From assembly GCF_011305535.1 (NCBI RefSeq), contig NZ_CP049905.1, positions 1,250,001 through 1,314,000 on the forward strand: 64,000 bases of DNA, given 5' to 3'. Made by a program: the position numbers and the translations under genes. This DNA is from Diaphorobacter sp. HDW4B (GTDB lineage Bacteria > Pseudomonadota > Gammaproteobacteria > Burkholderiales > Burkholderiaceae_C). The notes under the pieces are model-generated. The model did no database searches and was not told the origin of the DNA. It worked only from the letters and a program-made list of their open reading frames with translations. Of this stretch, positions 6,015 to 56,959 are shown in pieces; the stretch's first letter is position 1, and each line of letters begins with the position of its first letter.

Positions 6015-6978
6015 CTACGTTTCGTTGCGCGCAGCCGCGTTGAGCGCCTGCAGCTCATCGAGCTTCTGCCCGATCTTGATTTCCAGCCCGCGCGGCACGG
6101 GACGATAAAAACCCGGCGGCTCCATCCCGTCAGGCAGATAGTTCTCACCCGCCGCAAAACCGCCCGCTTCATCATGCGCATAGCGGTAGTTCTTGCCGTA
6201 GTCCAGCTCCTTCATGAGCTTGGTCGGCGCATTGCGCAGGTGCATGGGCACGGGCCGGGTGCTGTCCTGCTTCACGAACGCGCGCGCTTCGTTGTAGGCC
6301 TTGTAGACGGCGTTCGATTTGGGAGCAATGGCCAGATAAACAACACATTCTGCCAGCGCAAGCTCGCCCTCGGGTGAGCCGAGGCGTTCGTACACTTCGG
6401 TCGCATCCAGCGCCAGGCGCAGCGCGCGCGGATCGGCCAGACCGATGTCCTCGCTCGCCATGCGCACCAGTCGCCGCGCCATATAGCGCGGATCCGCACC
6501 ACCATCGAGCATGCGCACCAGCCAATACAGTGCAGCATCCGGATCGGATCCCCGCACCGACTTGTGCAGCGCGCTGATGGTGTCGTAGAACTGCTCGCCG
6601 CCCTTGTCGTAGCGGCGCATGCGCTCGCCCAGCACCTTGAGCAGCCATTCATCGGTGATAGCCGCGACGCCCGCCTGCTTGGCCGTGACCGAAAGTGTCT
6701 CCAGCGTGTTGAGCAAACGGCGTGCGTCGCCGTCGGCGTACGAAATCAAACGATCCAGCGCCGCCGCTTCGATCTCGGGAATCGCGCCCAGCGCCTGCGC
6801 CTTGGCGACGATCTGCTTGAGATCGTCTTCCGACAGCGACTGCAGCACATAAACCGCCGCCCGCGACAGCAGCGCGGAGTTCACTTCAAACGAAGGGTTC
6901 TCGGTCGTCGCGCCGACGAAGGTGAACAGGCCGCTTTCCACATGCGGCAGAAACGCGTCCTGCTGGCTCTTGTTGAAG
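6015..6978 (-). pseudogene. rarA: rarA (mgsA) 3' fragment, chromosomal copy cut by the element
   Basis: C-terminal two thirds of the chromosomal RarA/MgsA AAA+ ATPase (replication-associated recombination protein A, related to WHIP/Mgs1). The native part starts at [20 protein letters not shown] and includes sensor 1 ([12 protein letters not shown]) and the tetramerisation region to the stop. The open frame continues into the element up to about 7160, but those residues (to ...RTLSV) are element sequence and do not resemble RarA. Joining 50698-50352, the 9-bp core and 6969-6015 restores a continuous 436-residue frame, so this is a clean interruption. Confidence 0.93.
6970..6978. other. attL core
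   Basis: TTGTTGAAG, the left copy of the 9-bp sequence shared by both junctions. On the rarA coding strand it encodes Phe-Asn-Lys. To its left is rarA coding sequence, to its right AT-rich element sequence. Confidence 0.85.
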
Positions 6979-7037: not shown

Positions 7038-7049
7038 TATTTGCACAAA
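7038..7049. repeat. candidate integrase arm-binding site, left end
   Basis: The 12-mer TATTTGCACAAA recurs in the same orientation near the other end at 50291-50302. Further partial TGCACAA/CGCACAA copies follow at about 7060-7085. Repeated short sites inside both ends of a tyrosine-recombinase element are typical arm sites. The role is inferred. Confidence 0.5.
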
Positions 7050-7161: not shown

Positions 7162-8442
7162 GTGTCGGTCTACCCAATCAAGTACAAGGTTCTGAACAAA
7201 GAAACTGGTCGCAAGGTCAGTGTCACCCGCTGGCGTGTTCAGATCCGCAAGGGAGGGGAAAACCTCTCCAAGCTCTTTGACGAAGAAAGTCTTGCCCGTT
7301 CGTGGGAAGACCAAGAGGTCAAACGGATCAACATGGGTGTGGCACCCAATCTGATCTTTGACATGAAGTATCAGCTTGAGATGCCTGACATGCGCACTCT
7401 GCTGAGGGACTACTTTGACCAGTACATGAGCAAGCAAGCCGCTTCCTCATTCAAGACCAACCAGAACCGTTGCCTTCGCGCTATTCCAGCCATTCCTGTT
7501 TATCTCAAGGATCTGGGTCCAAAGATTGACAACTATCGTTATCAAAATACGATTGTTGACGCCATGATGGGGCGCACTTACAACAAAGACTATATTGAGT
7601 TCGGCCAATTCAAGATTGACACCGTGGACTTCTGGCTTTTGATTGCCTACATGGATTCAAGGCGAAAAGCTGGCATTAAGAACAACACGATCCTTCGTGA
7701 AATCTCCACCATTAGTTCAGCTTTTGAGAAGGTCTACAAGCTCTACCCAGAGAAGTTCCCAAATGGCCTCATGAACCCAGTCAAAATGCTTCCAAAAGGT
7801 GAAAAGCCTAAAGCCTACCTTGGACGCAAACGGGTTCTTTCCGAAGACGAAGCCGTTCAAATTGCTGAGTGGATGAAGCTTAAAGCCAATCAAGAGCCCT
7901 ACTACCTCTTTGTTACCTGCCTTGAGTCAGGAGCACGGAAAAGTGAAGTTCTTGGCGCTCAATGGGAAAATGTTAATCTCAATCTTTGGTCTATCCACAT
8001 TCCTAAAACCAAGAATGGCCGACCAAGGGATATCATGATCCCGCAAGATGATGATTTTAGGGAATGGCTCAAAGCAAACCGCCTTGCTAAAGGACCAATC
8101 TTTAAATTGACACCTTGGAATTTTCGTCAGTATTGGGTTGATGCATTGAAGGCACTTGGTCTTTATGACGACCCTGACACCCGCCTTCATTTTCACGACA
8201 CACGACGAACAGCCCTGACTAATCTGATCCGTCAAAAGCGACTTAATAACTTTCAAATTGCCAAAGAGATGGGTGTTTCTCCACAAACAGTTGAAACGAC
8301 AGTTCAGAACATGCCTGATCGCTTGGCTGAGATCTTTGCAAAGCTTCGTGCTGGACATGCCTTGGATGAAGCTGAGATCATGATGCTTGCCGGTCATGGG
8401 TCTATCGGCATGACCAACGTCTACTTTGGCGATAGGAATTAA
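7162..8442 (+). CDS. int: site-specific tyrosine recombinase (integrase)
   Basis: Phage-type integrase of 426 residues, expected to catalyse integration and excision at the rarA attachment core. The catalytic domain shows the first Arg in CLESGARKSEVLGAQW, the beta-hairpin Lys near KTKNGRPRDI, HDTRR (His-x-x-Arg), a late GH (LAGHGS) and the nucleophile Tyr in TNVYFG close to the C-terminus. Between HDTRR and the GH box is an unusually long stretch (about 50-60 residues). It starts with GTG at 7162 behind a GAGAGAGG ribosome site, about 180 bp from attL. Confidence 0.95.
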   Translation: MSVYPIKYKVLNKETGRKVSVTRWRVQIRKGGENLSKLFDEESLARSWEDQEVKRINMGVAPNLIFDMKYQLEMPDMRTLLRDYFDQYMSKQAASSFKTNQNRCLRAIPAIPVYLKDLGPKIDNYRYQNTIVDAMMGRTYNKDYIEFGQFKIDTVDFWLLIAYMDSRRKAGIKNNTILREISTISSAFEKVYKLYPEKFPNGLMNPVKMLPKGEKPKAYLGRKRVLSEDEAVQIAEWMKLKANQEPYYLFVTCLESGARKSEVLGAQWENVNLNLWSIHIPKTKNGRPRDIMIPQDDDFREWLKANRLAKGPIFKLTPWNFRQYWVDALKALGLYDDPDTRLHFHDTRRTALTNLIRQKRLNNFQIAKEMGVSPQTVETTVQNMPDRLAEIFAKLRAGHALDEAEIMMLAGHGSIGMTNVYFGDRN

Positions 8443-24812: not shown

Positions 24813-24814
24813 AC

Positions 24815-25922: not shown

Positions 25923-25923
25923 G

Positions 25924-25947: not shown

Positions 25948-26006
25948 CTTGCCGTTGACTTTGCCTCTCGTTTTACTACCATCATTATTATCACCGGAGA
26001 ACAATA

Positions 26007-34881: not shown

Positions 34882-35207
34882 AGAGCAAAGTACGAACAAG
34901 TATGGAAAACAAGAAAGTCCAGATCACAGAGGACTTCACAGGAGTGGTGAGAAGTGATCGTGTGTACGCCAGCCTGGCCAACAACGAAAAGCTTTCCTTG
35001 ACGATCACAAAACACTATGTCAATGGCAAGCTTCACAAAGAAGATGGCCCAGCCGTCCTATGGTCAAGTGGACAGGAGGAATATTGGCTTAATGACCAAG
35101 AACACACCAAACAAGAATTTGAACAGTGGCAGGACAAGAAGCATCTGAACGATAAGCTTCAGACCACACTAGAACCCAAACCTACAGAGAAGAGGTCAAA
35201 ATTATGA
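34878..35207 (+). CDS. HREDGPA-type repeat protein 5 in mob operon
   Basis: 109 residues with one clear repeat (YVNGKLHKEDGPAVLWSSGQ) and the closing module (WLNDQEHTKQEFEQW), then a Lys-rich tail (KKHLNDKLQ). It overlaps mobC and the next gene by 4 bp each, so it is translated together with the mobilisation proteins. Confidence 0.7.
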   Translation: MKSKVRTSMENKKVQITEDFTGVVRSDRVYASLANNEKLSLTITKHYVNGKLHKEDGPAVLWSSGQEEYWLNDQEHTKQEFEQWQDKKHLNDKLQTTLEPKPTEKRSKL

Positions 35208-35593
35208 GCAACACAACAGGAATACCAGATAACTTTACTGGTTCACTTAGAAGAACCTACACAACAACAGACTACCAGACTGGCTTAGAAACCAACTACA
35301 TCAGACTAGAGCACTACTTAAACGGAATGCTTCACAAGGAAGGTGGCCCAGCCCGTGACGCCGCCGACACAAAAGAATGGTTCATTGAAGGCCAAAGACA
35401 CCGTGAAGATGGGCCTGCAATTGTCGTTTTAGGTGATCCAGACTCAGGTGGCATACCCACGAAGCGCTGGTTTCTAAGAGATAGAGAGTTGACTGAAGAG
35501 CAGTTCAACCGCTTTCTTGAAATGAAAGCCCTCAATGAAAATCTTCAAATCAATCTTCCTAACAGAAATATAACCAAGAAGGGGAAGATATGA
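35204..35593 (+). CDS. HREDGPA-type repeat protein 6 in mob operon
   Basis: 129 residues with two repeats (YLNGMLHKEGGPARDAADTK, GQRHREDGPAIVVLG) and the closing module RELTEEQFNRFLEMKALNEN, whose end resembles that of the previous gene (KHLNDKLQ). The two are tandem duplicates. It overlaps the relaxase start by 4 bp. Confidence 0.7.
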   Translation: MSNTTGIPDNFTGSLRRTYTTTDYQTGLETNYIRLEHYLNGMLHKEGGPARDAADTKEWFIEGQRHREDGPAIVVLGDPDSGGIPTKRWFLRDRELTEEQFNRFLEMKALNENLQINLPNRNITKKGKI

Positions 35594-36918
35594 ACGTAAC
35601 GATCTTCCCAACAGGGAAAGGAGGTGTAGCTTCAGCCGTTAACTATCTACTTTCAGACAAGGATCATGAAGGCAAGAAGCGTTCAATCCCACCTGAAATT
35701 CTCTCTGGCGATCCAAACACCTTTGAAGCAATCGCCAACGCCACAAAGCGCCTTCACAAGTACACATCTGGTGTCGTCGCCTTCCGTGATCATGAGTCCG
35801 TCACCCCAGAACAGATCAACACCGTCATTGACACCTTCCGTTCCACATTCCTACCGGGTCTGGAGCTTGATAAGAACTTCGCTGATTTCTGGGTCATGCA
35901 CCGTGAAAAGGGAAACGTCGAACTGCACTTCCTGGTTGCCAATACTGAGTTGGTCAGCACGCAACAACTAAATATTCACCCTCCGGGTGCGAAGAACATT
36001 GCGTTCTTCAATGCGTTCTCTGCCGTCATGAACGACAGCTTCGGGTTCGCTCAAGTGGTACCCGATCCCCTCAAGATTTCACTCAAGCCCTTTGAGGCCA
36101 AGTCTCCCAACGGCAAGAAGGACAAGAAGGCCAAAGGTGACTTCGCCACCGTCCTTCATTCAGAGATCGTCGGTGGTTTCATCACCAACCGAAACCAGTT
36201 GATTGGCTACCTCACCCGCAATGGCATTGACGTTGCCAAAGTCGGCAGCGACTTCCTCACCGTGCGCCTACCTGGTCAGCAGAAGAACACCCGCCTCAAG
36301 GGCCCCCTCTTCTGCAAGGACAGCGACTACGCCGAGCTTGTCGCCCAACACCACCAGTCCAAGATCCCGAAGTACCTCACCCAACAGGAGGCACAGGAAC
36401 AGAAGGACAAGCTCGTTGCTGGCATAGAGGCACGCCTGGCCTTCAATGTGCGCCGCTACCTCACCCCCAAGCCTCGTGCCGTGCGTGCGCAGCAGCTAGT
36501 GTCTATGCCGTTCATGGCGCCCGATCGCACCAGACCGAAGGCAGTGGAACCACCACCCAAACGCATGGCGGACCACCTCAACGATCACCTACGCAGTCTC
36601 AAGGAGCATGCAGCCCCCAAGCCACCCGTTAGCACCGCAGATCTTCCGCACCAGGTAGCTCGCAGGCAAACCGACCAGGAACAAGCCGCACTATTGCCCT
36701 CTATCGGCAATGCCGCACAGGGTGGCTTAGAAGCCCAGATCGGGAGCCTTTCCTTGCAGTACCACAGCTTACTCCTTCTTCTGGCCGGTGCAAAAGGCAA
36801 AAGAGCTACTTTGCTCAAGTCTCAAATCATGGCTCTGGAACAAAAGCTTTCTGCACTTAACCTAGAGCTTGAGAAGAAAAAAGCACAGACGCCAGAAGTA
36901 AAATTGCCGGATATTTAA
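35590..36918 (+). CDS. mobA: relaxase, MOB-P (HEN-like) mobilisation nuclease
   Basis: 442 residues. The N-terminal relaxase domain (to about 260) begins MNVTIFPTGKGGVASAVNYL. It contains the motif HREKGNVELHFLVANTELVS followed by LNIHPPGAKN, resembling the HEN-type MobA/MobL pattern in which His and Glu replace the usual three-His motif. The C-terminal 180 residues are Pro/Lys-rich and then coiled coil. It is expected to nick oriT and lead the strand. No coupling protein gene was found, so transfer needs a helper. Confidence 0.82.
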   Translation: MNVTIFPTGKGGVASAVNYLLSDKDHEGKKRSIPPEILSGDPNTFEAIANATKRLHKYTSGVVAFRDHESVTPEQINTVIDTFRSTFLPGLELDKNFADFWVMHREKGNVELHFLVANTELVSTQQLNIHPPGAKNIAFFNAFSAVMNDSFGFAQVVPDPLKISLKPFEAKSPNGKKDKKAKGDFATVLHSEIVGGFITNRNQLIGYLTRNGIDVAKVGSDFLTVRLPGQQKNTRLKGPLFCKDSDYAELVAQHHQSKIPKYLTQQEAQEQKDKLVAGIEARLAFNVRRYLTPKPRAVRAQQLVSMPFMAPDRTRPKAVEPPPKRMADHLNDHLRSLKEHAAPKPPVSTADLPHQVARRQTDQEQAALLPSIGNAAQGGLEAQIGSLSLQYHSLLLLLAGAKGKRATLLKSQIMALEQKLSALNLELEKKKAQTPEVKLPDI

Positions 36919-38818: not shown

Positions 38819-40975
38819 TCAAGCCAACGCCTTCACATCCCCATAAAGGGCTCTTAAATGTGCAGATCCCATATCTAGAATCGGCTCGTACATGAAAGAA
38901 TTAAGGTGAATGTTCTCTGGAGTCATTAGATTGACCTGCTCAAGTTTTTGTACTTCTGCAACACTACCAAGATTCTGTCGCTTGTACTCTTTGAGCAGTT
39001 CAATTGTTTGATTCTGAGTTATTGAGTCAACGAATGCTTGATTGTTTATCCGAGCGATCATATGCTTTTCAGCAATGAGCCGGATAGCGATTGACATCAC
39101 AATTTTGCTTTCTAGCTCTATGTGATCATCGACACCCGCAGCAATTGCTTCAGCTTGCTCAAACAACACAGCCATCACCGTCTTGCCAGCAGGTGGCAAA
39201 GTGAGGTTAGGTTTGTCTGCCAATACTTTCTTATAGATCACACACAAGTCGTCCAACGTAATCGTATCTGTGTCGGCCTTCATGTGAAGCAACGAGGTCA
39301 ACGTTGCGTAGTCTGCACTATGTCCGCAATACTCAGCCAAGTTGCGCACAAAGGGGATTGCCGAGATGCAGTACGGGGGTTCAGCAAGCTTGCTCTTCCA
39401 GAAGATAAACGGATTGTTCTGGTATTTTTCAGGCGACAGCGAAAGCTTGCGCCCACTTTTCGACGCCATTAGTTTGTATGGTCGCCCCAGATTCAACCTG
39501 CCGCTGATGCTGCGATAAAAGTCAAAATTGTGTGACAGAAATAGACAGAAGAATTTTCCAGAATGGGAAATGTCTTTTAGATATTCAATGATGGCGTATT
39601 TGTTTTTGTAGTCAAACGAGTCTGCGATGTCGTCGACTAACAAAATTGTTGTGCCACCCTGCTTTTGTCTAGACTGAATTTCAAAAAGTATGTTGAGGAT
39701 GTACAAGGCACGCTTTTCGCCCTGACTCAGCACTTTTAGCAAGGCGTCTCTTGGTACTTCACCTTCGCGCTCACCATCAGAAAACATAAATGCGATGGTA
39801 GGCTTTGTGCCTTTCAAAATGACATCTTCTTGATTGGACACAGACATCTTGAATGGGACAAAGAAGCGTTGATTGAAGGTTTCGACCACTTCTTCCCATG
39901 CAGTACGCTCTTCCTTTGCCTGTTTAACTGCACCTTCAATCGTCACCTTGCCAGCTTTAAACTGAACAAGAAATTGGTCGTAGAGTTCTTTTTGATCGAC
40001 CAGATAGGAAATCCAAACGTCCTTTTGTAGCTGCTTAAAGTTCTTTAGTTCGGGCAAGATTTCCTGATTTTCAAACAGGTAATCTCGAAATTTTCGCAGG
40101 TCAGCCGTTGAGATCTTCTTGTCTATGGCGTCAAACTTACCTGCAAGCTCTTTATCGGAGAATATTTTTTCTCGCTCATCTTCAATGCGCTTGGTAAGTT
40201 CGGCAGCAGAACTAACTTCTTGTTTGCCACCTTTGGTATTTAGATTGATAGTGTGCTTTGCAGCAAAGAAGCCATTGTCTGCAAGCTGCTTATTCACTGT
40301 GCCTGCACTGTAGTGATTGAATTGCTTGCTGAGCACATCTGACTTAGACACCAAGTCGTTGTACGTCTTAATGTATTCCTCTAGCTGGTCTTTAATTTTC
40401 CCAGATTCCAGCAGAGCAATCGTCTTTTCATTGAAGATCTCGCAATAGACAAGCTTGGATAAGTTGCTAGGTGCAGCCTGCGCAACATTTCCCTCCAATG
40501 ACTCAAGCAGTTCTGCTACGTTGCTTGCGCCAAATGCTTTCATGAACTCCATCTCTGGGGTCAGCGTTCGCCCAGTCAAACCAGAGAGTTGCTTCAGTTT
40601 TCCGAACAAACCTGCAAGGCTCTCAGAGATTTGCTTAAGTGCATCGTCATACTGCTGCTTGATTGCACTGTTCACCAGTAACAGTGAAGTTCGGTCTGAT
40701 GAAAATTCTTGGTTGTAGGGTTCAATAACAAATATGGAGTCTGGAGACACAACGGCTCCAGCACTATCTTTGATAGACCGGGACGACTCTCTATCAGGGA
40801 AAATCAAGTCAACTGTCTCACGCCCTTTTGCATGATCATCAAACGTCTTCGATAGTGAAGTCTTCATGAAGCCATTCGGTGCATATATCGCATACCCGTT
40901 GCTGGCAGTAAAGTCAAAACAATGGCTCAACTCACTAATACCGTAGCAATTTCTCAGGTCAATGTTCAGCTTCAT
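38819..40975 (-). CDS. AAA (ABC/SMC-like) ATPase, putative defence
   Basis: 718 residues from ATG 40973-40975 (GAGGGG upstream). The nucleotide-binding halves are split: Walker A-like YAPNGFMKTSLSKTF at the N-terminus, a long coiled-coil insert (about 110-400), then the signature LSQGEKRALYILNILFEIQ, Walker B TILLVDDIADSFDYKNKY and SHNFDFYR. This layout is that of AAA_13/RloC-like overcoming-lysogenisation-type ATPases, common in phage defence. The C-terminal 180 residues are helical and unassigned. It lies 80 bp downstream of the nuclease-like gene at 41056, with a CATATG palindrome between them. Confidence 0.8.
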   Translation of the reverse strand: MKLNIDLRNCYGISELSHCFDFTASNGYAIYAPNGFMKTSLSKTFDDHAKGRETVDLIFPDRESSRSIKDSAGAVVSPDSIFVIEPYNQEFSSDRTSLLLVNSAIKQQYDDALKQISESLAGLFGKLKQLSGLTGRTLTPEMEFMKAFGASNVAELLESLEGNVAQAAPSNLSKLVYCEIFNEKTIALLESGKIKDQLEEYIKTYNDLVSKSDVLSKQFNHYSAGTVNKQLADNGFFAAKHTINLNTKGGKQEVSSAAELTKRIEDEREKIFSDKELAGKFDAIDKKISTADLRKFRDYLFENQEILPELKNFKQLQKDVWISYLVDQKELYDQFLVQFKAGKVTIEGAVKQAKEERTAWEEVVETFNQRFFVPFKMSVSNQEDVILKGTKPTIAFMFSDGEREGEVPRDALLKVLSQGEKRALYILNILFEIQSRQKQGGTTILLVDDIADSFDYKNKYAIIEYLKDISHSGKFFCLFLSHNFDFYRSISGRLNLGRPYKLMASKSGRKLSLSPEKYQNNPFIFWKSKLAEPPYCISAIPFVRNLAEYCGHSADYATLTSLLHMKADTDTITLDDLCVIYKKVLADKPNLTLPPAGKTVMAVLFEQAEAIAAGVDDHIELESKIVMSIAIRLIAEKHMIARINNQAFVDSITQNQTIELLKEYKRQNLGSVAEVQKLEQVNLMTPENIHLNSFMYEPILDMGSAHLRALYGDVKALA

Positions 40976-41037
40976 ACTTCCCCTCAAAGAACGTTGTTGA
41001 TATTTTCAAAGCACCTTTGACAGCCTTGCAATCCTTA

Positions 41038-43163: not shown

Positions 43164-43901
43164 CTACAAGCTCTCGATCAGCTTCAGCACTTCACCTATG
43201 GTGTTCGCACCGTCAATTTTGCTGTTGTCAAACGCCATCATGTAGTGATAACGGTAGCCTGTTTCATGGGCAATTTGGTTCGCCTGCGACTCCCAAATTT
43301 TTCCAAGCCTTAGCTTGTCCTTGGAGTCCGAGTTGTCACGGTCGTCGCCTTTAGTCTCAATGACAACAATGTTCTTGCTCTCCGTCAGAACCACAAAATC
43401 TGGGTAGTGGTTGAGGAAGCCATTGATGGCAAACCCCTTTCCTCGCTCAAGATTGCGGGTCCACCAAACAACGTTCTCCAGTTCCGCCACACCACGAATC
43501 GTGCGTGCTTCCAAAGAATTCACGCCTGCTTCAGTGACATACAAGCTCTTGCTAATGGCCGGTGCATTCTCACTAGGTGTGATCGTTGCAGGGAACGAGA
43601 ACGTTGGCTTGAGCTTGACCTTTTGAATGGTCAGCCAGTTGCTAAATTCTTTCGCAGCGTAGTCGCTGGCCAAGCTCTGGATCTTCTCCTTGATCACCTT
43701 GACATAGGCGTAGTCGCGCTCAAGACAATCTGCACGCTGCTCGTGGCTCATGGCCTGAACAATGCGGGTCAAGTAGTGCTTTACGTCGTTGTCTTCAATC
43801 GGATAGAAAGCATTCTTTCCGATGAGACTAAAGAGCCTACCAACAATAGAGGTGATTTGACCTGAAGGCGGCTGGCTTCGGATGATGCCGTTAAGTCGTT
43901 C
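43164..43901 (-). pseudogene. res: type III restriction enzyme res gene, 3' fragment
   Basis: C-terminal endonuclease part of the type III Res subunit, separated from the rest by the IS insertion. It contains the PD-(D/E)XK nuclease motif HYPDFVVLTESKNIVVIETK followed by KLRLGKIWESQAN. Removing the IS and one TTC target copy joins ...AEKE to RLNGIIRSQPPSG in frame, for a total of about 910 residues. Alone it would lack the helicase domain. Confidence 0.9.
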
Positions 43902-43926
43902 TGAATCGCCCCGGGTTTTCTAGACA
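43902..43926. repeat. IS left terminal inverted repeat
   Basis: Begins TGAATCGCCCCGGG and ends TAGACA; matches the complement of 45109-45133 with two mismatches. Confidence 0.9.
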
Positions 43927-43964
43927 CCTCTGAGCCTCAAATCTAAGGCCCAATAGGAGGTGCT

Positions 43965-44243
43965 ATGAGTAACCAAAGATATCCCCAAGAATTCAAGACC
44001 GAAGCAGTCAAGCAGATCACTGAGCGCGGCCATAAGGTGGCCGATGTTTCAGCCCGACTAGGCGTAAGTCAGCACAGCCTTTATCAATGGATCAAGGCTC
44101 AAGGAACGCCTGCCCATGATCGGCCGGCACAGGTGTCACAAACCGAGGAGTTGCGACGACTGAAGGCTGAACTCAAGCGAGTCACAGAGGAGCGCGACAT
44201 CCTAAAAAAGGCCGCAGCGTACTTTGCCAAGCAGTCCGGGTGA
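43965..44243 (+). CDS. IS3-family transposase OrfA
   Basis: 92 residues: HTH_Tnp_1-type DNA-binding domain (YPQEFKTEAVKQITERGH, VSARLGVSQHSLYQWIKA) followed by a leucine-zipper-like helix (LRRLKAELKRVTEERDILKK). Its stop overlaps the start of orfB, where -1 frameshifting or coupled translation makes the full transposase. Confidence 0.92.
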   Translation: MSNQRYPQEFKTEAVKQITERGHKVADVSARLGVSQHSLYQWIKAQGTPAHDRPAQVSQTEELRRLKAELKRVTEERDILKKAAAYFAKQSG

Positions 44244-45115
44244 AGTACGCATTCATCAAGCGCCATGAAGGTGAGTACAGCATTCGCCGACTGTGCAAGG
44301 TCATGGCTGTACACCCTAGCGGCTACTACGCCTGGAAGGCGCAACCGATGAGCCTGCGTGCAAAGGACGATCAACGTCTGTTGGGTCTTCTCAAGCATGC
44401 GTGGCTCGAGAGTGGTGGCGTCTATGGCTATCGCAAGCTGACCATGGACATGCGTGATTTGGGCGAGAGCTGCGGCAAGCATCGCGTGGCACGACTGCTC
44501 AAAATCGAGGGGCTGCGCTCACAGACGGGCTACAAACGCCGTGCAGGCATGCGTGGCGGCAAACCTGCCATCGTCGCGCCCAATCACTTGCAGCGCCGCT
44601 TCGCAGCGGCCGAGCCCAACCAAGCTTGGGTGACTGACATCACATACATCCGCACCCATGAAGGTTGGCTGTATCTGGCGGTGGTGGTTGACCTGTTCTC
44701 ACGTCAGGTTGTTGGCTGGTCTATGGGCAGCCGCATCGATACTGGCTTGGTGCTCGATGCACTGTTGATGGCCTTGTGGCGTCGCAGGCCTAAGCTGCCT
44801 GTCATGGTGCATTCGGATCAGGGTAGTCAGTTTACAGGCCATGACTGGCAGGGCTTTCTGCGAGATCACAATCTGGTCTCCAGCATGAGTCGTCGCGGCA
44901 ACTGTCACGACAACGCCGTGGCCGAGAGCTTCTTCCAGTTGCTCAAGCGCGAGCGTATTCGCCGCCAGATTTACCCGACGCGCGATGAGGCCAGGGCTGA
45001 TGTCTTCAACTACATCGAGATGTTTTACAACCCGAAAAGGCGTCATGGCACCGCCGGAGATATCTCTCCGGTAGAGTTCGAAAGACGGCATTCCCAACGG
45101 CTCAACAGTGTCTAG
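44240..45115 (+). CDS. IS3-family transposase OrfB (integrase core)
   Basis: 291 residues with an HTH_21 region (YGYRKLTMDMRD) and an rve DDE core: first Asp in WVTDITYI, second in MVHSDQGSQFTG, Glu in NAVAESFFQLLKRE, then YNPKRRHGTAG. All catalytic residues are present, and the frame is intact. Confidence 0.94.
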   Translation: MKYAFIKRHEGEYSIRRLCKVMAVHPSGYYAWKAQPMSLRAKDDQRLLGLLKHAWLESGGVYGYRKLTMDMRDLGESCGKHRVARLLKIEGLRSQTGYKRRAGMRGGKPAIVAPNHLQRRFAAAEPNQAWVTDITYIRTHEGWLYLAVVVDLFSRQVVGWSMGSRIDTGLVLDALLMALWRRRPKLPVMVHSDQGSQFTGHDWQGFLRDHNLVSSMSRRGNCHDNAVAESFFQLLKRERIRRQIYPTRDEARADVFNYIEMFYNPKRRHGTAGDISPVEFERRHSQRLNSV

Positions 45116-45133
45116 GAAATCCGGGGCGATTCA
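45109..45133. repeat. IS right terminal inverted repeat
   Basis: Ends in CCGGGGCGATTCA, the complement of the left end. It also supplies the premature stop of the res frame. Confidence 0.9.
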
Positions 45134-47131
45134 TTCCTTCTCAGCCTTCTTCACAGCCTTGAATGCAGGCGCACTTTCCCCATTGCCAATCTCTTGCGCA
45201 TCTACTGCATAGACGTCTGCCTCAATAGCAGTGAAGTTGACCGTGGCATCAAGATTTGCCAACACAAAATTGGACAACAAGTTTTCTTTTGCCAGCTTGT
45301 GCCACTCGTCACCAGCGTCAAAGAAGCCACCGTCCGAGGGAACCTTGATGAAGAACTGAGGCAGTTTGACGGCCTGCACAGACTGCTCGAACATAGGTTT
45401 TATCTTGTGTTCGTTCATGTGCGCTTTCAACTCTTCAGGCGAGCTATCGCCTGTGGCATCTTTAGCCTGTTGTTCAAATTGTTTGGCTTGCTCCACGGCT
45501 TGGGCCTTGATAGTTTCCACCCCAGCAATCACAGCATTGCCAGTTGTAGCCTCTGTTCCAGCAATCCCAGCACTCTGCTCACCTTCTGCGGCATGAGTAG
45601 CTTGCTGGACTGCTTGCGCTTCCCAGTTCGGATTGAGCTTGCTCGTTTCCACTTCAAGAGCGTCGCCAGAATCACCAGACGGTTGCGCTGGTGTCGGGTC
45701 GGTTGGCACCGGCAAAGGAAGGCTCTGCTGATCGGCCTGCGGGGCTGGATCGACCGGAATAGACGACAGATCGACTTCCCGATAGTCACGCTTGGAAAAG
45801 CCTGCCTTGTTCAGCCCAGCGACGACCTGGTTCAGCGTGCTCTGGAACTGGCTAGAAGACGTGAAGACATAGCTCAGGTTGAGCAATTCCACACTGTGCT
45901 TGCGCGTGTAGGGCATGCGCAAAACACGGCCCAAAATCTGGGTGACATCAACAACCGAAGACTTGTTTGCCAGCGTTGCCAACACATAGGCAAACGGGCA
46001 GTCCCAACCTTCCTTCAACGCATTGACGGTGATGATGTATCGCACCTCACATGTGCGACTGAGCAGATCAACGCCCTTCAGTTCGTTCACATTGGCCGTT
46101 TTGATAGCTATGTGTTCGGGAGAAATGTTGAGATCAACAAGAATCTCACGCACCTTCTCAAAGGTGGTCGTATCGTCTTTGGTCTTCGGTTCAGCCTGGA
46201 ACAGCACGATAGGCCGAATGTAGCCACCGCCATTAGCTTCTGCTTTCTTGGCGAACTCTTCCAGTTGGCGGCGCATGTTCAGCGCGGCCATGATCACGTC
46301 TTCCTGACTGCGCTGATTGGCAACAATCACCGGCAGCTTCACCATGTTCTGCTTCTTGAGCCGAAGGGCATCAACGTAGCTGATGATGTTGCTGTTGTCG
46401 CGCGGCGTAGCAGTCAGATCAAAAATGAAGCTAGGGTTGAGGTTGCGAAGCATGTCAACCGACAACGTGCTTTCGGCATTGTGGCTCTCGTCTACAACCA
46501 CGATAGGCTTCAAACTGCGCATGACGTTGATGAGTGCTGAAGGATCAGTACCTTCCAGTGGCTCAACAACTTCACTATCGTCAGCAATGAAGGACGCAAG
46601 ATAGCCGTTCTCTTGGAACGCCTTTCGGTTCTCTTTGTTGGTCGCTTTCAACGAGTCAAACGACATCACAACTACTGAAAGCTGCTCCTTTACGGTGTCT
46701 GCATTGAAGCCAGCACCTTGCAGAACATCAGCCTTCTCATACACCTGCACACGCCCATTGAACAGATCGTTCAAACGCTGACGATAAGGGTGATCGATGT
46801 TGGACAGGTTCTTGACGGTCTGCTCAAGGATGGTCAGCGAAGGCACCAACCAAACTACAAACTTTGGCCGAGTCGGGTTGTACTCAGCGAAGGCCGCAAA
46901 AATTCGATCAAGTGCATTGACTGCAATGAAGGTCTTTCCACCAGCAGTGGGAACCTTCACGCAGACATGAGGCACTTCCTTGATGTTGTTCTTGTAGACC
47001 TGATTGAGAACACCACGCTCTTGCCAATACTTTGCAAACGAGTTTGGCAGATGCCCCTTGCATTCAAGGAGGGTGTCCAGATACGCACTCAGATCGGTGA
47101 GTACATCAGCCTGATAGTCTTTCAGTTCCAT
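45134..47131 (-). pseudogene. res: type III restriction enzyme res gene, 5' fragment
   Basis: First 666 codons of the Res subunit: the DEAD-type translocase with Walker A VKVPTAGGKTFIAVNALD, Walker B IVVVDESHNA, motif III DLTATPRDN and motif VI VTQILGRVLRMPY. The frame ends at the IS border (stop at 45131-45133 inside the IS repeat). The nuclease domain is on the other side, so restriction is expected to be lost while the methyltransferase stays intact. Confidence 0.92.
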
Positions 47132-47145
47132 TTTTATCTTTCTTC

Positions 47146-48816
47146 TTAGAAACGAGTGATATCACGCGGAATGCGCTTGAACGTGATCGAGTGCTTGTAC
47201 AAAAAGTCTTTGTCCAAGGCGCACTTGTCGGCATAGATAGTGAACTGCTCTGGTCGTGCTGAAAGAGACTTCAGGTTCAAGCTACCCAAGAAGTCAAGAT
47301 CGAGGGTTGTGACCTGATCGCGCTCATAGCGGAAGATCCACAAAGCCGTTTCAGTTGCACCTAGCGCATATGGGCTTACGGGGTTATCTTGAGCAAATCG
47401 CTTCTCAACAGGAATGTTCTCAGTGTAGGCAACGTAGTCCCTGATGGCACTTACACCGACTTCTTCATTGAGGTTCTTGTCGTCTTTAAAGAGCGAAAAA
47501 CCTAAATCGTAGAAGTCAAAACCGCCACCTGTTCCGGGGACAAACTTTGCTCCATCTCCGTAGCCGTCTATTACGCGCCGAACACGCTCTGCCGTAACGG
47601 CTTCTGCGTAGTCCATCATTTCGCAGAGGATGAATCTACGGGTTCCGCCATCGGAAGCATTTAGCTTCAGAACTGCTTGTGCTGTGGTTCCACTGCCACC
47701 GAAAGAATCAAGAACAATTGCTTCATCGTTATCGCAGAGTTCTAAGCAATCAACAATCAAGTCTACTGGCTTGGGAAACTCAAACTCAGAGGCCAAACCA
47801 AGTCGCCCCAACTCGGTAGTACCTTGCTCACTGATGTATTTAGTCTCCGTCCAAATGGACTTAGCTTTGACGGTTTCCTTACGATACTTCTCAAAAACGC
47901 GCCATGCACCCTCACGTGTCTGCCGTGCATAAAGAAACTCGGTAGTTTGTGCCTTTGTTTTAAGGGTAAATTTATCCTTACCCCACCGCCAACAGCTCTC
48001 GACACCCTCACTGTTAAACGGCTCAATCTTGAAAGAATCAGGATGCTCTTCAAGAGAAACAAGAAAATTGCCACTTTCATCTACTACGCCTGGACGAGCA
48101 TAGATTGGATAGAAAAGATTCGGACGATTAAAACGCCCAAACTTTGGATTGCGGTTGCGCAACTCCCTGGAAGAGAAAGATCCAAAGGTATCCTTTTCAG
48201 GCAAGTTAGTACCCTCTGTGGATAGCTCACCCAACTCCGAAAGGCTGCTCTTTCCAAAACAGAGAAGATATTCGTGCGTCTTCGCAATTTGCTTGTAAGT
48301 CTGACCACGCTTGTTAGATTGAACGATGATTTGAGCAAGAAAATTAGACTCGCCAAAAACCTCATTCATCAACAAACGGAAATGAAATATTTCATTGTCA
48401 TCCAAACTAACAAAGATAACGCCATCATGTGCCAAAAGCCGATGAAGAAGCTTAAGGCGAGGATAAATCATGCAAAGCCATTTATCGTGACGACTTAAAT
48501 CCTCACCTTCTTTCTTAACAACGTCACCCAACCACTTCTTAATTCTAGGGTCGTTTACAGCATCGTTATATGCCCAACCTTCATTGCCCGTGTTGTAAGG
48601 TGGATCAATATATATACAATTAACCTTCCCCTCATATTCGGGAAGCAAGCCCTTCAAAACCTCAAGATTGTCACCCCGGATGATCTTATTGTCTTTTGAA
48701 TTATCCAAAGACTGATCCGAGCCCGAGAACGAGTACTTCTTATCCAACAAGCGAAATGGCACATCGTGATGATGGTTAACAACCGCGCTTCTTCCCACCC
48801 ATTGAAGTGTTGGCAT
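47146..48816 (-). CDS. mod: type III restriction-modification methyltransferase (Mod)
   Basis: 556 residues, beta-class N6-adenine methyltransferase: motif IV CIYIDPPYNTGNEGWAYNDA near residue 70 and SAM motif VLDSFGGSGTTAQAVLKLN near 390, with a target-recognition region between. It is 14 bp upstream of res on the same strand, the usual mod-res order. Mod can methylate without Res, so the cell should stay modified even though res is interrupted. The recognition site cannot be read from sequence. Confidence 0.93.
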   Translation of the reverse strand: MPTLQWVGRSAVVNHHHDVPFRLLDKKYSFSGSDQSLDNSKDNKIIRGDNLEVLKGLLPEYEGKVNCIYIDPPYNTGNEGWAYNDAVNDPRIKKWLGDVVKKEGEDLSRHDKWLCMIYPRLKLLHRLLAHDGVIFVSLDDNEIFHFRLLMNEVFGESNFLAQIIVQSNKRGQTYKQIAKTHEYLLCFGKSSLSELGELSTEGTNLPEKDTFGSFSSRELRNRNPKFGRFNRPNLFYPIYARPGVVDESGNFLVSLEEHPDSFKIEPFNSEGVESCWRWGKDKFTLKTKAQTTEFLYARQTREGAWRVFEKYRKETVKAKSIWTETKYISEQGTTELGRLGLASEFEFPKPVDLIVDCLELCDNDEAIVLDSFGGSGTTAQAVLKLNASDGGTRRFILCEMMDYAEAVTAERVRRVIDGYGDGAKFVPGTGGGFDFYDLGFSLFKDDKNLNEEVGVSAIRDYVAYTENIPVEKRFAQDNPVSPYALGATETALWIFRYERDQVTTLDLDFLGSLNLKSLSARPEQFTIYADKCALDKDFLYKHSITFKRIPRDITRF

Positions 48817-48923: not shown

Positions 48924-48961
48924 TTTATTGCTATAGCAATAAACTCAACAACTAGTTGTTG
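48924..48961. repeat. two adjacent perfect palindromes
   Basis: TTTATTGCTATAGCAATAAA (48924-48943) and CAACAACTAGTTGTTG (48946-48961). They lie between the mod promoter and the stop of the element rarA, which the second one contains. They could form a bidirectional terminator or an operator for mod. Confidence 0.5.
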
Positions 48962-50256
48962 CCAGCTTCTTCATCCCACTTCTTCAGCAGGGCAAGCTTT
49001 TCGCCAATCTTGACCTCTAACCCTCTTGGCACCGGCTGGTACCAATTAGGTTCATCTATGCCTTCTGGAAGATAAGTCTCACCAGCAGCATAGGCGTTCG
49101 GTTCGTCATGAGCATATCGGTATTCATGACCGTAACCGAGTTCCTTCATGAGCTTTGTTGGGGCATTTCTCAAGTGAACAGGCACCTCACGGCTCTTGTC
49201 CTGCTTCACAAACGCCTTGGCTTGGTTGTAGGCGTTGTACCCAGCATTGCTTTTGGCAGCTACCGCCAGATAGATTACAGCCTGCCCCAAGGCCAACTCC
49301 CCTTCAGGGCTTCCCAGACGCTCATAGGTCAAGGCAGCGTCGTTGGCTATCTGCATGGCCCTTGGATCGGCCAAGCCAATGTCTTCCCACGCCATGCGAA
49401 CAATGCGCCGTGCCAGATACCTCGCGTCTGCACCACCGTCCAACATGCGTGTGAGCCAGTAGAGGGCTGCGTCAGGATGCGATCCACGCACCGACTTGTG
49501 CAAGGCAGAAATCTGGTCGTAGAAGTTGTCCCCACCCTTGTCAAAACGACGACTGTTCAAGGTCAAAGCGTTCTGCAAGAAGTCAGCCGTGATCTGCGTG
49601 ATACCTGAAGCTTTCGCTGCCGTGCTGGTCTGTTCCAGCAGGTTCAAGAACCTTCTCGCGTCGCCGTCTGCATACCCAATGATGGTGTCCGTCGCCAAGT
49701 CGTCAAACACCAGATGGCCAAGGGCAATGTCTTGAGCACGCTTCAAGAGCAGCCGCAGTTCTTCGTCTGTGAGCGACTTCAGAACATAGACCTGTGCCCG
49801 TGACAACAGCGCCGAGTTGACCTCAAACGAAGGGTTCTCTGTGGTCGCTCCAATGAACGTCACCAAGCCACTTTCAGCATAGGGAAGAAGAGCGTCTTGT
49901 TGCGACTTATTGAACCTGTGAATTTCGTCTACGAACAAGATCGTGTGCTTGCCCATAGCTAGGTTCTGCTGCGCCTGTTCCATAGCAGCCCTGATGTCTT
50001 TCACACCAGAGAACACAGCAGACAAGGCGATGAACTCGCACTTGAAGGCCGTAGCTGTCAGGCGTGCCAAAGTCGTTTTACCGACACCCGGTGGCCCCCA
50101 GAAGATCATGGAGTGCGGCTTGCCCGACTGAAAAGCCAACCTCAAAGGCTTGCCGTCACCCAACAGATGCGACTGCCCAACCACCTCGTCCAAGGTCTTC
50201 GGACGAAGCGCTTCAGCCAGTGGCGCTTGCGGCTCTTGTGCAAACAAATCAAGCAT
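48952..50256 (-). CDS. rarA: complete element-borne RarA (MgsA) AAA+ ATPase
   Basis: 434 residues, full length. Walker A IFWGPPGVGKTTLARL, Walker [21 protein letters not shown], sensor 1 [12 protein letters not shown], and the C-terminal region ending VPRGLEVKIGEKLALL. It aligns throughout with the split chromosomal copy (436 residues when rejoined). Start MLDLFAQE (ATG 50254-50256): the start codon overlaps the stop of the truncated host frame (ATGCTTGA), so host transcripts can feed it. RarA acts at stalled replication forks. The codons around the attachment core are synonymous variants, which should prevent re-integration here. Confidence 0.95.
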   Translation of the reverse strand: MLDLFAQEPQAPLAEALRPKTLDEVVGQSHLLGDGKPLRLAFQSGKPHSMIFWGPPGVGKTTLARLTATAFKCEFIALSAVFSGVKDIRAAMEQAQQNLAMGKHTILFVDEIHRFNKSQQDALLPYAESGLVTFIGATTENPSFEVNSALLSRAQVYVLKSLTDEELRLLLKRAQDIALGHLVFDDLATDTIIGYADGDARRFLNLLEQTSTAAKASGITQITADFLQNALTLNSRRFDKGGDNFYDQISALHKSVRGSHPDAALYWLTRMLDGGADARYLARRIVRMAWEDIGLADPRAMQIANDAALTYERLGSPEGELALGQAVIYLAVAAKSNAGYNAYNQAKAFVKQDKSREVPVHLRNAPTKLMKELGYGHEYRYAHDEPNAYAAGETYLPEGIDEPNWYQPVPRGLEVKIGEKLALLKKWDEEAGNN

Positions 50257-50290
50257 GCTTGCCCCCCGCAAAACAATGGGGAAGCCCAAA

Positions 50291-50302
50291 TATTTGCACA
50301 AA
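50291..50302. repeat. candidate integrase arm-binding site, right end
   Basis: TATTTGCACAAA, same orientation as at 7038-7049; 40 bp from attR. Confidence 0.5.
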
Positions 50303-50342
50303 CGACTCTCTAAGTCGTTGTTTTATATAGTAGTTGACAGCT

Positions 50343-50351
50343 TTGTTGAAG
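50343..50351. other. attR core
   Basis: Second copy of TTGTTGAAG; to its right the rarA coding sequence continues towards its start at 50698. Confidence 0.85.
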
Positions 50352-50750
50352 CGGTGCACTTCATCGACGAACACGATGGTGCGCTGCTGCATCAGCCCGT
50401 CGCGCGCGGACTGCGCCTGCTCGACAGCTTCGCGGATGTCCTTGACGCCGCCCAGTACCGCGCTGATCGAGATGAACTGCGCATCGAAGGCCTGCGCCAT
50501 CAGCCGCGCAATGGTGGTCTTGCCGACACCCGGCGACCCCCAGAGGATGCAACTGTGCGGCTGGCCCGACTCGAACGCAAGCCTGAGCGGCATGCCCGGA
50601 CCGAGCACATGCTGCTGACCGATCACCTCACCCAGAGTGTGCGGGCGAAGGCGTTCGGCGAGTGGCTGGTGGGCAGAGGGATTCGGGTTCACGGGCAAAC
50701 AGAGCGACGAAGGGAAAACCTGATCGTAACTCGCTTGGCCCGCGCGCAGC

Positions 50751-51392
50751 TTATTGCTTCACCACATCCGCACCGGCAGGCGGCTTGAACTGGAACGTGG
50801 CGGGCGCGACCTGCGTGTTCACCTGCATGTTGGTGAAGGTCAGCACCGAGCGCTGGCCAAAGCTGTCGGTGATGTCGAGCGTGGCCAGCGTGTCGCCAGC
50901 GAAGCCGACGCGCACGCTTTTGATCTGGCCATCCTTGACCTTGGGTTCGGCCAGCACCCATTGCAGACCGCCCTGCTCGGGCGCGGAAGACAGCTTGAAA
51001 TCAGCCTTGAGCGCCGAAAGGTCAGGTGCGCTTGCCAGCAGCGCGGCGGGCGTACTGCCCAGCACTTGCGACTGCGAGCGCTGCGTGACCTGATTCAGGT
51101 CCACGTCGTAGAGCCACAGGGTCTTGCCATCGGCAACAATGGTCTGCTCGAACGGGCGCTTGTAGTCAAAACGGAAATTGCCGGGGCGTTGGAACTCGAA
51201 GCTGCCGCTGGAGGTTTTCACCTTGGGCGCCTGTCCATCCTTGCCCGGCGAGGTGACGGTCTGCGAGAAATCGGCGCGACCTGTCTTCGCGCCCTTCATG
51301 AAGCCTTCCAGGCTCTGCAGGCCGTCGGCGCTGGCCACCTGTGCGCAGGCCGCCAGCAAAAAAGTAGTGAGCAAACGCTTCGTCATCATCAT
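50751..51392 (-). CDS. lolA: outer-membrane lipoprotein carrier protein LolA
   Basis: 213 residues. Signal peptide (MMMTKRLLTTFLLAACAQVASA) and a LolA fold with the typical stretches GSFEFQRPGNFRFDYKRPFE, TLWLYDVDLNQVT and a hydrophobic C-terminal part. It carries lipoproteins across the periplasm from LolCDE to LolB. AGGAG lies 9 bp before the first ATG. It sits between ftsK and rarA, the conserved order ftsK-lolA-rarA, with rarA starting 52 bp downstream. Confidence 0.93.
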   Translation of the reverse strand: MMMTKRLLTTFLLAACAQVASADGLQSLEGFMKGAKTGRADFSQTVTSPGKDGQAPKVKTSSGSFEFQRPGNFRFDYKRPFEQTIVADGKTLWLYDVDLNQVTQRSQSQVLGSTPAALLASAPDLSALKADFKLSSAPEQGGLQWVLAEPKVKDGQIKSVRVGFAGDTLATLDITDSFGQRSVLTFTNMQVNTQVAPATFQFKPPAGADVVKQ

Positions 51393-51481
51393 CGATTGAA
51401 ACTCCTAGGGCACGCTGGGCGTGATGTGCGGTTGGAGTCTTCGGCCCTCGAAGAGGTTCAATCCATCCGTCCGCGCATCAT

Positions 51482-53821
51482 TCACTCGCCGCCGCGTGCG
51501 GGCACCAGCACTTCGCGCTGGCCGCTCGATGTGAGCGCGCTGACCAGACCGGCCTTTTCCATGTCTTCGAGCAAGCGCGCCGAGCGGTTGTAACCGATGC
51601 GAAGCTTACGCTGAACATAAGAAATACTCGCTTTGCGGTCTTTCAGGACGATCTCGACCGCCTGGTCGTACATGGGGTCCTTCTCGCCGTTGCCATCACC
51701 ACCTTCGCCGCCGAAGCCGCTGTCCTCGCCATCGGCGGTGCCGCCTTCGAGCACGCCCTCGATGTAGTCCGGATCGCCCTGCTCCTTGAGGTAGCTGACG
51801 ACGCGGTGCACTTCCTCGTCCGAGACGAATGCACCGTGCACGCGGATCGGCAGGCCCGTGCCGCTGGCCATGTACAGCATGTCGCCCATGCCGAGCAACG
51901 CTTCCGCGCCCATCTGGTCGAGGATGGTGCGGCTGTCGATCTTGCTGCTGACCTGGAAGGCGATACGCGTGGGGATATTGGCCTTGATCAGACCCGTGAT
52001 CACGTCCACGCTCGGGCGCTGGGTGGCCAGAATCAGATGGATGCCAGCGGCACGCGCCTTCTGCGCCAGACGGGCGATCAACTCTTCGATCTTCTTGCCG
52101 ACCACCATCATCAGGTCGGCCAATTCGTCGATCACCACCACGATGTGCGGCAGACGCTGCAGCGGTTCAGGCTCTTCCGGCGTCAGGCTGAACGGATTCG
52201 GAATCGATTCCTCGCGCGCCTTGGCATCGTCGATCTTGGCGTTGTAGCCTGCCAGATTGCGCACGCCCATCTTGCTCATGAGCTTGTAACGGCGCTCCAT
52301 CTCCGCCACGCACCAGTTCAGGCCGTGCGCCGCCTGGCGCATGTCGGTCACCACCGGGCACAGCAGGTGCGGAATGCCTTCGTAGACCGACATTTCCAGC
52401 ATCTTCGGGTCGATCATCATCAGGCGCACATCGCGCGCCTCGGCCTTGTACAGCAGCGACAGAATCATCGCGTTGATACCCACCGACTTGCCGGAACCCG
52501 TCGTACCAGCCACCAGCACGTGCGGCATCTTGGCCAGATCGGCCACCACCGGGTTGCCGACGATGTCCTTGCCGAGGCCCATGGTCAGCATGCTCTTGGC
52601 ATCGTGATAGACCTGCGAGCCCAGGATTTCAGAGAGCTTGATCGACTGGCGCTTGGCGTTGGGCAATTCCAGCGCCATGAAGTTCTTGCCGGGAATCGTC
52701 TCGATCACGCGGATCGACACCAGCGACAGCGAACGCGCCAAGTCCTTGGCCAGATTCACCACCTGCGAGCCCTTCACGCCCGTGGCGGGTTCGATCTCGT
52801 AGCGCGTGATCACCGGGCCTGGCGCAGCAGCCACCACAGCCACATCCACGCCAAAGTCCTTGAGCTTCTTCTCGATCAGGCGGCTGGTCATCTCCAGCGT
52901 TTCGGGCGAGACCGTTTCCTGACGCGCCTGTGCCGCATCCAGCAGATCGACCTGCGGCAGCTTGCTGTCGGGCAGCTCGGAGAACAGCGGCTTCTGGCGT
53001 TCCTTGACCACGCGCGTGCTCTGCTGCGGCTCGGTGAGCACCGGCTCGATGATCTGCACAGGTTGCGGGTGCAACTCGTCGCTCTCGATGCGCTCTTCCA
53101 TCACCACCTCGGCGCGCTCGCGTGCAGCACGCTTGCCCGCCGCTTCGTCCTGGGCCTTTTCGCGCTTGGCGCGGCTGCCTTGGACCAGTCCATCAATGCG
53201 ACCGCCGATGCGTTCAGCCAACTGCCCCCAGGAGAATCCGAACACCATGGCAGCGCCCAGCACCACCAGAATCACGCAGATCAGGCCCGAACCCGCATCG
53301 CCCAACCAGCTCAAAGCGGCCTTGCCCATCGAGTAGCCCAGCATGCCGCCGGCCTGACCCGGCAGGAAAGTGTCGTAGCGATACAAGCGAGTCCACTCCA
53401 GCGCCGTGCTGGAGAGCAGCAGAATCAGCAGCCCCATCCAGAACATCGAACGGCGCGCCCAAGGCCCGACCGGCGATTTCACCTGTTCACCACCACGCAT
53501 CCAGTAGGCCAGCGACGAAATCCAAGCCTTCACCGCAGCGGCAATGCACCACCAGACCGAAAAGCCCAGCGCGTAATAGCTGCCATCGGCCAGCCATGCG
53601 CCCAGACGGCCCAGCCAGTTGCGCACCTGCAGGCCATCGCCCGCGCCGGACGTGGACCACGCCGTGTCCTGCGCGTTGTAGCTCACGAGTGCCAGAATCC
53701 AGAACACAAGGGCCAGCAGCCCCACGAGCAGGCCGATTTCATGGCTGAAGCGCGCAGCCCACGAGCGCGGCGCGGACTTGCCGCCAGCAGATGCATTCAA
53801 GGTATTGAGGGAATAGGTCAT
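51482..53821 (-). CDS. ftsK: DNA translocase FtsK
   Basis: 779 residues from ATG 53819-53821 (the frame extends two codons to a TTG). Four N-terminal transmembrane helices, a short linker (about 220-320), then the RecA-like motor with Walker [18 protein letters not shown] and Walker [16 protein letters not shown], and a C-terminal winged-helix gamma domain ([20 protein letters not shown]) that reads KOPS sites. It anchors to the septum and pumps chromosomal termini during division. Confidence 0.95.
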
Positions 53822-56538: not shown

Positions 56539-56657
56539 TTGCCTCAAGATTGCGAATGAAGATTCCAAAGCTGATGTCACCTGTTTGCCAACGATGACAT
56601 AGGACTGCCCCTAGAATGCTTGCAGGTGCCGCGCATTTGATTGATGCCAGCACCCAC

Positions 56658-56826
56658 GTTCTCAGGGCGGGGCGAAATTCCCCACCGGCGGTATCTGGCA
56701 GGTCTTGAAAAGACAAGGCGATGTCAGCAGCCCGCGAGCGCTGCCATCTTTGTCATGAAGAAGGCAGGTCAGCAGATCTGGTGAGATGCCAGAGCCGACG
56801 GTCACAGTCCGGATGAAAGAGAAACG
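56658..56826 (+). promoter_or_regulatory. FMN riboswitch (RFN element)
   Basis: Conserved RFN blocks in order: TCAGGGCGGGGCGAAATTCC, CCACCGGCGGTA, AGCCCGCGAGCGC, GGTCAGCAGATCTGGTGA, GAGCCGACGGTCACAGTCC and GGATGAAAGAGA. It senses flavin mononucleotide and precedes ribH on the same strand by 130 bp, so it should repress ribH when FMN is abundant. Confidence 0.95.
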
Positions 56827-56959
56827 TGAAGTGATGAACCCCAAAATGCTGCCTTGTCTGTCGTGCGCGCGTGCGTTTCCGTTCGCTCGTTCGCCTGCTT
56901 GGCAGCGATTCGCTTCGCGCGCCCTGATTCATTGAAACGCTTTAATTTTCGAGAAGCAA

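Follow-up and report, generated by a model that had tools for sequence, protein, structure and literature searches.

Genes for RarA have turned up on unrelated mobile elements, namely the clostridial cassettes and, as far as the consulted sections of the literature go, RSM-type inoviruses of Ralstonia. According to the available text of three reports, cassettes of 24 to 27 kb reside in a split rarA gene in C. botulinum and C. butyricum type E (PMC2764570, PMC4824171, PMC8776182). At codon 102 rarA is interrupted by the cassette, inside which lies an unbroken rarA of a different lineage; the insertions in the two species are described as separate events (PMC2764570). The spare RarA shares 69–70% of its residues with the split one, a 34-kb topB cassette is built alike, and the authors supposed that these cassettes bring a substitute for a target gene which the host needs (PMC4824171). 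Conserved protein genes are likewise occupied by integrase-driven elements such as the ICE SXT at prfC and islands at dusA which, in the sections of the two sources that describe them, supply a new promoter and an N-terminus fused to the remaining host gene (PMC8409611, PMC4482086). Islands in tRNA and tmRNA genes (Islander; available text of PMC4383910) regenerate the split gene itself, and the displaced fragment marks their far end.

In the window (the whole stretch of 64,000 nucleotides of Diaphorobacter sp. HDW4B DNA that was analysed, to which all positions refer) rarA is cut at its HRFNK codons by an island of 43.4 kb, which bears a tyrosine integrase and is flanked by 9-bp repeats. On comparison of the related loci described below we consider it probable that this integrative island, having split rarA, has its spare rarA fed by the host message and that such spare genes later take over.

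The split rarA and its spare copy

On the minus strand of the window an ftsK-like gene and lolA are followed by the start of rarA. The host gene is interrupted at the HRFNK codons, and its 5' part covers 50352..50698 (minus strand; start possibly TTG or GTG near 50698). Its 3' part (FNKSQQDAF..., 6015..6977, minus strand), whose frame is still open, adjoins the gene of the tyrosine recombinase (integrase) at the left end of the island (7162..8442, plus strand; PF00589, 2.5e-12). Both host flanks were joined in a script and read through as a single uninterrupted rarA frame of 436 codons; therefore the insertion is clean. The core direct repeat CTTCAACAA overlaps the F-N-K codons at the spare-gene end (50343..50351, minus strand) and was identified by sequence at the integrase end as well (6970..6978, minus strand). 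A tyrosine integrase beside one end, CTTCAACAA at both ends and a readable empty-site frame mark the island as an integrative element.

Where the host rarA frame passes the HRFNK codons into element DNA the G+C content drops. The frame as a whole (50698-50249, minus strand) reads ...VDEVHRFNK followed by 30 element-encoded residues and ends in a TGA at 50251-50249. This open continuation (AVNYYIKQRLRESFVQIFGLPHCFAGGKHA) forms the right end of the element (50249..50342, minus strand), which also contains an arm-like repeat and a Shine-Dalgarno sequence. Probable arm-type integrase sites are given by TTTGTGCAAATA, with a right-end copy at 50291..50302 and a left-end copy at 7038..7049 (both minus strand). 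The complete, element-borne rarA (48952..50256, minus strand) encodes 434 aa; its ATG (50256-50254) falls within the frame overlap ATGCTTGA, and the gene ends at 48952. The TGA of the host frame occupies position +5 of this ATG, with an overlap of 8 nt. A TTG at 50301, proposed by the longest-frame ORF call, was rejected as the start since conservation favours the ATG at 50256. Pfam matches to MgsA_C (PF12002, 2.6e-64), AAA_assoc_2 (PF16193, 5e-23) and AAA (PF00004, 1.3e-16) describe a full-length protein with an AAA+ core and an MgsA C-terminal domain. A preliminary description of this DNA had claimed the split at Arg-Phe-Asn-Lys with a complete rarA at the right end in host orientation, which was confirmed base by base; the 30 residues read into the element, the stop and the new start inside the overlap proved correct as well. 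The extent given there, 48952-50698, stands for the right-end part, and the whole feature reaches the other end at 6970.

Among five rarA matches in the HDW4B genome the spare gene is the only complete one; two are the host halves and two are weak and partial (2.5e-10 and 7e-6). The spare rarA genes of this family of elements are under purifying selection, with a dN/dS of 0.03–0.07 in six of eight pairs (the other two pairs were not computable, and several dS values exceed 1 and are saturated). At the place in the spare rarA that corresponds to the core, the HDW4B element and all seven relatives considered have TTCAATAAG or TTTAATAAG, with the protein unchanged. This might point to protection from self-integration, if weakly, because the host junction of Candidatus Burkholderia pumila (G306) likewise reads TTCAATAAG.

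The spare rarA is immediately followed by cargo, namely the genes of a type III methyltransferase and restriction subunit (45131..48816, minus strand). The restriction subunit (45131-47131) comprises 666 aa, compared with 903 aa for similar frames in G299 and G300, and an IS3-like element (44240-45115, with a small frame at 43965-44243, inside 43164-47131) separates it from a 202-aa frame resembling its C-terminal part; the type III restriction gene is probably broken. A 722-aa protein (38819-40987) gave a full-length match to the candidate defence family PDC-S46 (2.8e-275) and a NERD-helicase lies at 9116-11092, which together with the type III genes make this a defence-carrying island. Cargo varies among the related elements, several of which have recognisable genes for restriction, methylation or abortive infection. 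Furthermore, several proteins of repeated 'W..NG..HREDGPA' units are encoded at 22348-27140 and 34878-35593, and such frames occur also in G303, G304 and other elements of this family; a Pfam scan of one of these proteins gave no match. A relaxase-like protein of the MbeA type (35590..36918, plus strand; NF047848, 1.4e-29, 103.6 bits against a cut-off of 500, no Pfam match) hints at a mobilizable element. Within the subset of proteins scanned, a DotA/TraY-like protein and two pilin-like proteins were the sole candidates for conjugation genes. In E. coli, portions of rarA influence serS, which lies downstream of it (PMC9012371, available text); the genes downstream of the host rarA studied here resemble branched-chain amino-acid transporter permeases, and the serS link therefore does not explain the rescue. 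An FMN riboswitch was located in the host flank at 56654-56829.

Related elements at the same site

An integrase scan yielded eight loci, in Comamonas suwonensis, two Limnohabitans, Burkholderia lata, a Curvibacter MAG, Janthinobacterium, Pseudoduganella danionis and Candidatus Burkholderia pumila, and a family search added G023, whose integrase is 46% identical; the hosts of these related integrases we take to belong to the Burkholderiales. All ten close integrase relatives (46–100% identical, the HDW4B one included) occupy the same rarA codons. Eight of the ten elements have a complete rarA at their far end, and in all eight of these it stands in the orientation of the host gene at the end which joins the host frame. 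The search of other genomes for the rarA 5' part, a complete rarA and the element end, as envisaged in the preliminary description, returned the same arrangement from seven further genomes (in G300 with the two ends on different contigs), a recurrence which makes it more than chance. The two remaining elements are those of the MAG G302, whose contig breaks off within the element and which yielded no complete rarA, and of the reduced symbiont Candidatus Burkholderia pumila, which has a broken integrase and yielded only degraded 3' pieces of rarA and no complete gene. In size the elements range from about 12 kb (G304, the smallest) to the 43.4 kb of HDW4B. The seven other spare rarA genes are 87–96% identical to that of HDW4B; the host halves of these eight genomes are 58–82% identical to the HDW4B spare. 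In Burkholderia lata (G301) a further complete rarA (L025) was observed on another contig, 67% identical to the HDW4B element copy, so that the spare is not the sole copy there.

The element is rare: the integrase was found in 2 of 299 genomes of the family, 1 of 399 of the order and 1 of 369 of the class, the last two finds being HDW4B itself and the samples overlapping. Plasmids yielded none, and neither did IMG/VR when scanned with two peptide patterns only. The rarA gene itself was missed at the threshold used in 9 of 299 genomes of the order, and its loss may be tolerated at times.

A tree of the C-terminal part of rarA (46 rows; L025 and L072 were dropped as the motif could not be cut) required six changes to account for its ten element-labelled rows, with chromosomal genes interspersed; this count is inflated, as three rows labelled native, L065 (G624), L066 (G623) and L074 (G502), were later read as fossils. 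A single origin of the element rarA was not supported, as the element genes do not form one clade in this tree. Elements may have captured rarA genes from hosts and may also have replaced those of hosts.

The stop-start overlap and the proposed supply of RarA

Coupling through overlapping stop and start codons is familiar from bacterial operons, e.g. trpB-trpA, where the terminating ribosome can restart. At the rarA site the integrase would recombine at CTTCAACAA, which lies within the codons for the conserved HRFNK motif, the element being possibly mobilizable, and the insertion destroys the host rarA. Ribosomes translating the host message would then continue through the cut frame into element DNA and terminate in the 8-nt overlap at the spare start, where termination-reinitiation, aided by the element's own Shine-Dalgarno sequence, would yield RarA from the host transcript. 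A later deletion would remove the element and leave its rarA as the sole copy; the upstream fragment, no longer of use, would shrink to a short in-frame leader. Both the host transcript and the reinitiation we infer from the sequences compared; independent initiation of the spare rarA is possible. The foremost alternative is a rescue without coupling, in which the spare gene would possess a promoter and ribosome site of its own and the open frame would be a by-product of integrase-binding sequences in the right end. On balance of the evidence that follows we regard this as unlikely.

In all eight complete elements the right end leaves the host frame open, and a TGA stands at +5 of the spare ATG. 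The distance from core to ATG is 94 nt in seven of them and 118 nt in G023, a difference that preserves the frame. Analysis of 11 right ends (these eight together with those of G524, G425 and G624) unveiled a stop in frame 0 in only 1, in frame +1 in all 11 and in frame +2 in 10. When unconstrained evolution was run on the right-end tree, one stopped tip or none was obtained in 0.85% of 2000 runs. A column permutation, the stricter test of the open frame, was weak, with P values of 0.22 (11 rows), 0.04 (9 rows) and 0.07 (7 rows), and thereby leaves room for a rescue without coupling. The same holds for G425, where the host frame stops (TAG) 15 nt ahead of the spare start, so that the overlap can be dispensed with. 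All eight elements carry TTGTGC repeats at both ends, as expected of arm-type integrase sites, and these repeats place the right end under constraint at the DNA level, and a TATATAAA-like stretch follows the core; both observations fit the by-product as well. A usable Shine-Dalgarno match (duplex energy of −8 or lower) was found in 10 of 17 element-type rarA genes, which again suits an own ribosome site; with a good Shine-Dalgarno sequence in most spare genes, coupling may help rather than be required. The absence of any sigma-70-like consensus from 50200-51500 is in line with the host expression proposed in the preliminary description and speaks against a rescue without coupling, if weakly, as only 0.3 sites were expected there by chance.

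Among the sequence data, the second codon of the spare genes is the strongest single point in favour of the overlap. It has the form NNT in all 17 element-type rarA genes (three of which, G623, G502 and G643, are of less certain element origin) and encodes five different residues (Ala, Leu, Pro, Ser, Val). NNT is required at this position because NNT followed by GAY writes the TGA at +5, and the integrase site does not obviously explain it, which argues against the by-product. For comparison, T makes up 31% of the third positions in the other fourfold codons of these genes (11–47% per gene). As a control, the 28 best-matching other loci were considered, of which 10 were dropped for want of an ATG NNN GAY start and four (G624, G623, G643, G502) were already among the 17; in the 14 control genes kept, all starting with ATG NNN GAY, NNT was found in five (Fisher 1e-4, kinship uncorrected), and three of these five (L061, L062, L064) are among the most element-like.

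A hairpin masking the ribosome-binding site (CCCC/GGGG before the ATG) was also considered and set aside. It was predicted in most right ends, not in that of G023, and gave no significant z-score; its covariation was no better than that of shuffles, which reached the score in 132 of 500 cases and the pairing in 89 of 500. As a modelled structure it is a possibility that went unsupported.

Probable remnants of the element and comparison with known systems

A sequence model of the right end was trained on the 11 rows and run on 220 genomes of the family. It returned five matches, two of which, in HDW4B and G023, belong to the training set; the new ones are G132 (7e-31), G216 (2e-11) and G194 (6e-9). 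G132 and G216 keep the 5' half of rarA, an open-frame right end with a TGA at +5 (94 nt from core to ATG in G132, 97 nt in G216), a complete rarA and a decayed 3' piece. The core and right end are kept in G132, G216, G425 and G624, and a decayed rarA 3' piece is found farther on in G132, G216 and G624. In G624 the rarA 5' part has lost its AAA core by an in-frame deletion and forms a leader ending in THRFNKAVKHFIDQLLSKLMVRILEMSPVPAGRNHV and the conserved TGA. In G194 a different in-frame loss has brought the opening codons of rarA up to the final stretch of the right end, and here too the TGA overlap is kept; the core and the TATATAAA stretch are gone, the model matching from position 44. Since that part is lost, the G194 rarA is not expressed from a promoter at the start of the right end, and the persistence of the leader frame with its TGA overlap argues against a rescue without coupling. 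Both leaders resemble the rarA N-terminus better than 1000 of 1000 shuffles (best of three references); in the shuffle control the best of four control frames was reached by 11 of 1000. The 34-codon leaders of G502 and G643 resemble the rarA start too (reached by 0 and 2 of 1000 shuffles) and show the same overlap, with little of the right end left.

In G132, G194, G216, G425, G524, G624, G623, G502 and G643 no complete rarA other than the element-type one was found; a single rarA match each was obtained for G624, G623, G502 and G643. With the integrase profile (E ≤ 1e-5) no match was found in G132, G194, G425, G624, G623, G502 and G432, and distant tyrosine recombinases (7e-19 to 7e-6) were detected in G216, G524 and G643, away from rarA or on other contigs. 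The element of G524, in which the contig ends inside the element, may be intact. G132, G216, G425, G624 and G194 seem to be fossils without a close integrase, for which we infer the order of events. Although the function of the upstream protein is lost in G624 and G194, its frame is retained, which fits selection for upstream translation without being proof of it. The assertion of the preliminary description that the element repairs the gene it breaks and passes the spare copy to host expression thus gains support from the comparison, through the frames of all eight elements and the leaders of G624 and G194.

When the right-end model R1 was run on 300 genomes of the order, 11 matches at E ≤ 0.01 were obtained. 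HDW4B, G524 and G425 belong to the training set, and G502 and G315 matched at a rarA start; of the six others, G327, G350 and G366 lie away from rarA, and for G348, G573 and G581 the place relative to rarA is not listed. G315 was not counted as a fossil, its match, like that of G502, owing much to the rarA start codons in the model. Element-like rarA genes of G219, G480, G382 and G405 showed no clear right end in the right-end search. G432 has a single rarA (L145), which at its start and in the DNA upstream resembles the G502 and G643 leader; the body of this gene groups as sister to the G502 one (100/98); leader and spare were possibly fused into one gene there.

A second alternative reads the fossils as tandem duplications of the rarA 5' end which then decayed, not as remnants of an element. 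The leaders of G502 and G643, which match the rarA start with almost no right end left, would suit it, as would G432, which belongs to the same genus and has one rarA beginning at the leader's start. We hold it to be improbable, since core and right end are present in G132, G216, G425 and G624, the decayed 3' piece in G132, G216 and G624, and right-end sequence in G194 at 6e-9. The idea that rarA serves the element's own replication, repair, transfer or insertion, its position beside the attachment site being incidental, can draw on the role of RarA in recombinational repair (PMC8735627), on a rarA-like gene in 35 phage records, on RSM-type inoviruses of Ralstonia, all of which encode RarA (PMC9535894), and on the RarA-driven insertion proposed for the clostridial cassettes (PMC2764570, PMC4824171), the cited points as given in the available text of these sources, but is very improbable given the tyrosine integrase and repeats at both ends, the rarA at the host-frame-joining end in host orientation in eight of eight elements, even with a 46%-identical integrase, and the retention of the spare rarA where no close integrase remains. 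Returning to the coupled supply of RarA from the host message, a stronger form is conceivable, which we put forward tentatively from the sequences: the spare RarA would be translated well only with the element in rarA, since its start would have to be opened and re-entered by host ribosomes, so that integration gates the rescue, and rarA would have been replaced repeatedly and permanently in several genera, the old gene ending as a vestigial leader.

Compared with known systems, the likeness to operon stop-start coupling lies in a stop and a start that overlap by a few bases (TGA at +5, eight of eight); unlike in operons, a broken host gene lies upstream here and an element gene downstream, and the pair arises only after integration. 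With the prfC and dusA elements the locus shares an integrase element which, as stated in the available text, restores expression and reading frame of a conserved protein gene (PMC8409611, PMC4482086); the HDW4B element differs in bringing a whole separate second gene, while the host promoter and the cut 5' part seem still to be used. With tRNA and tmRNA islands it shares a split gene that is restored, whereas here a protein frame is cut and a complete divergent homologue does the restoring (PMC4383910, available text). In the open-access literature we found no report of a rarA-specific integrase family in these hosts, of the conserved stop-start overlap or of shrunken leaders. The latter offer natural variants for testing translational coupling; the rescue idea becomes testable, and a route is outlined by which the gene of a selfish element may replace a core repair gene.

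Both the split-plus-spare plan and the idea of a replacement are already known from clostridia, as far as the available text of those reports goes, and rarA is split there too at a fixed codon with a divergent intact rarA alongside, a likeness of plan rather than a claim of kinship. The clostridial cassettes, compared by description only, belong to another phylum, carry other cargo and have a 6-bp end motif, and their proposed agent is transposition or RarA itself, compared with a rarA-specific tyrosine integrase here; in the text available of PMC2764570, PMC4824171 and PMC8776182 no mention of a reading-frame overlap, coupling or takeover was found. That two unrelated groups hit rarA alike raises the question why rarA is chosen. 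With the Diaphorobacter element and its relatives the clostridial plan is met in unrelated bacteria, with a dedicated integrase, in many copies and with a shared end that would feed the spare gene from the host message.
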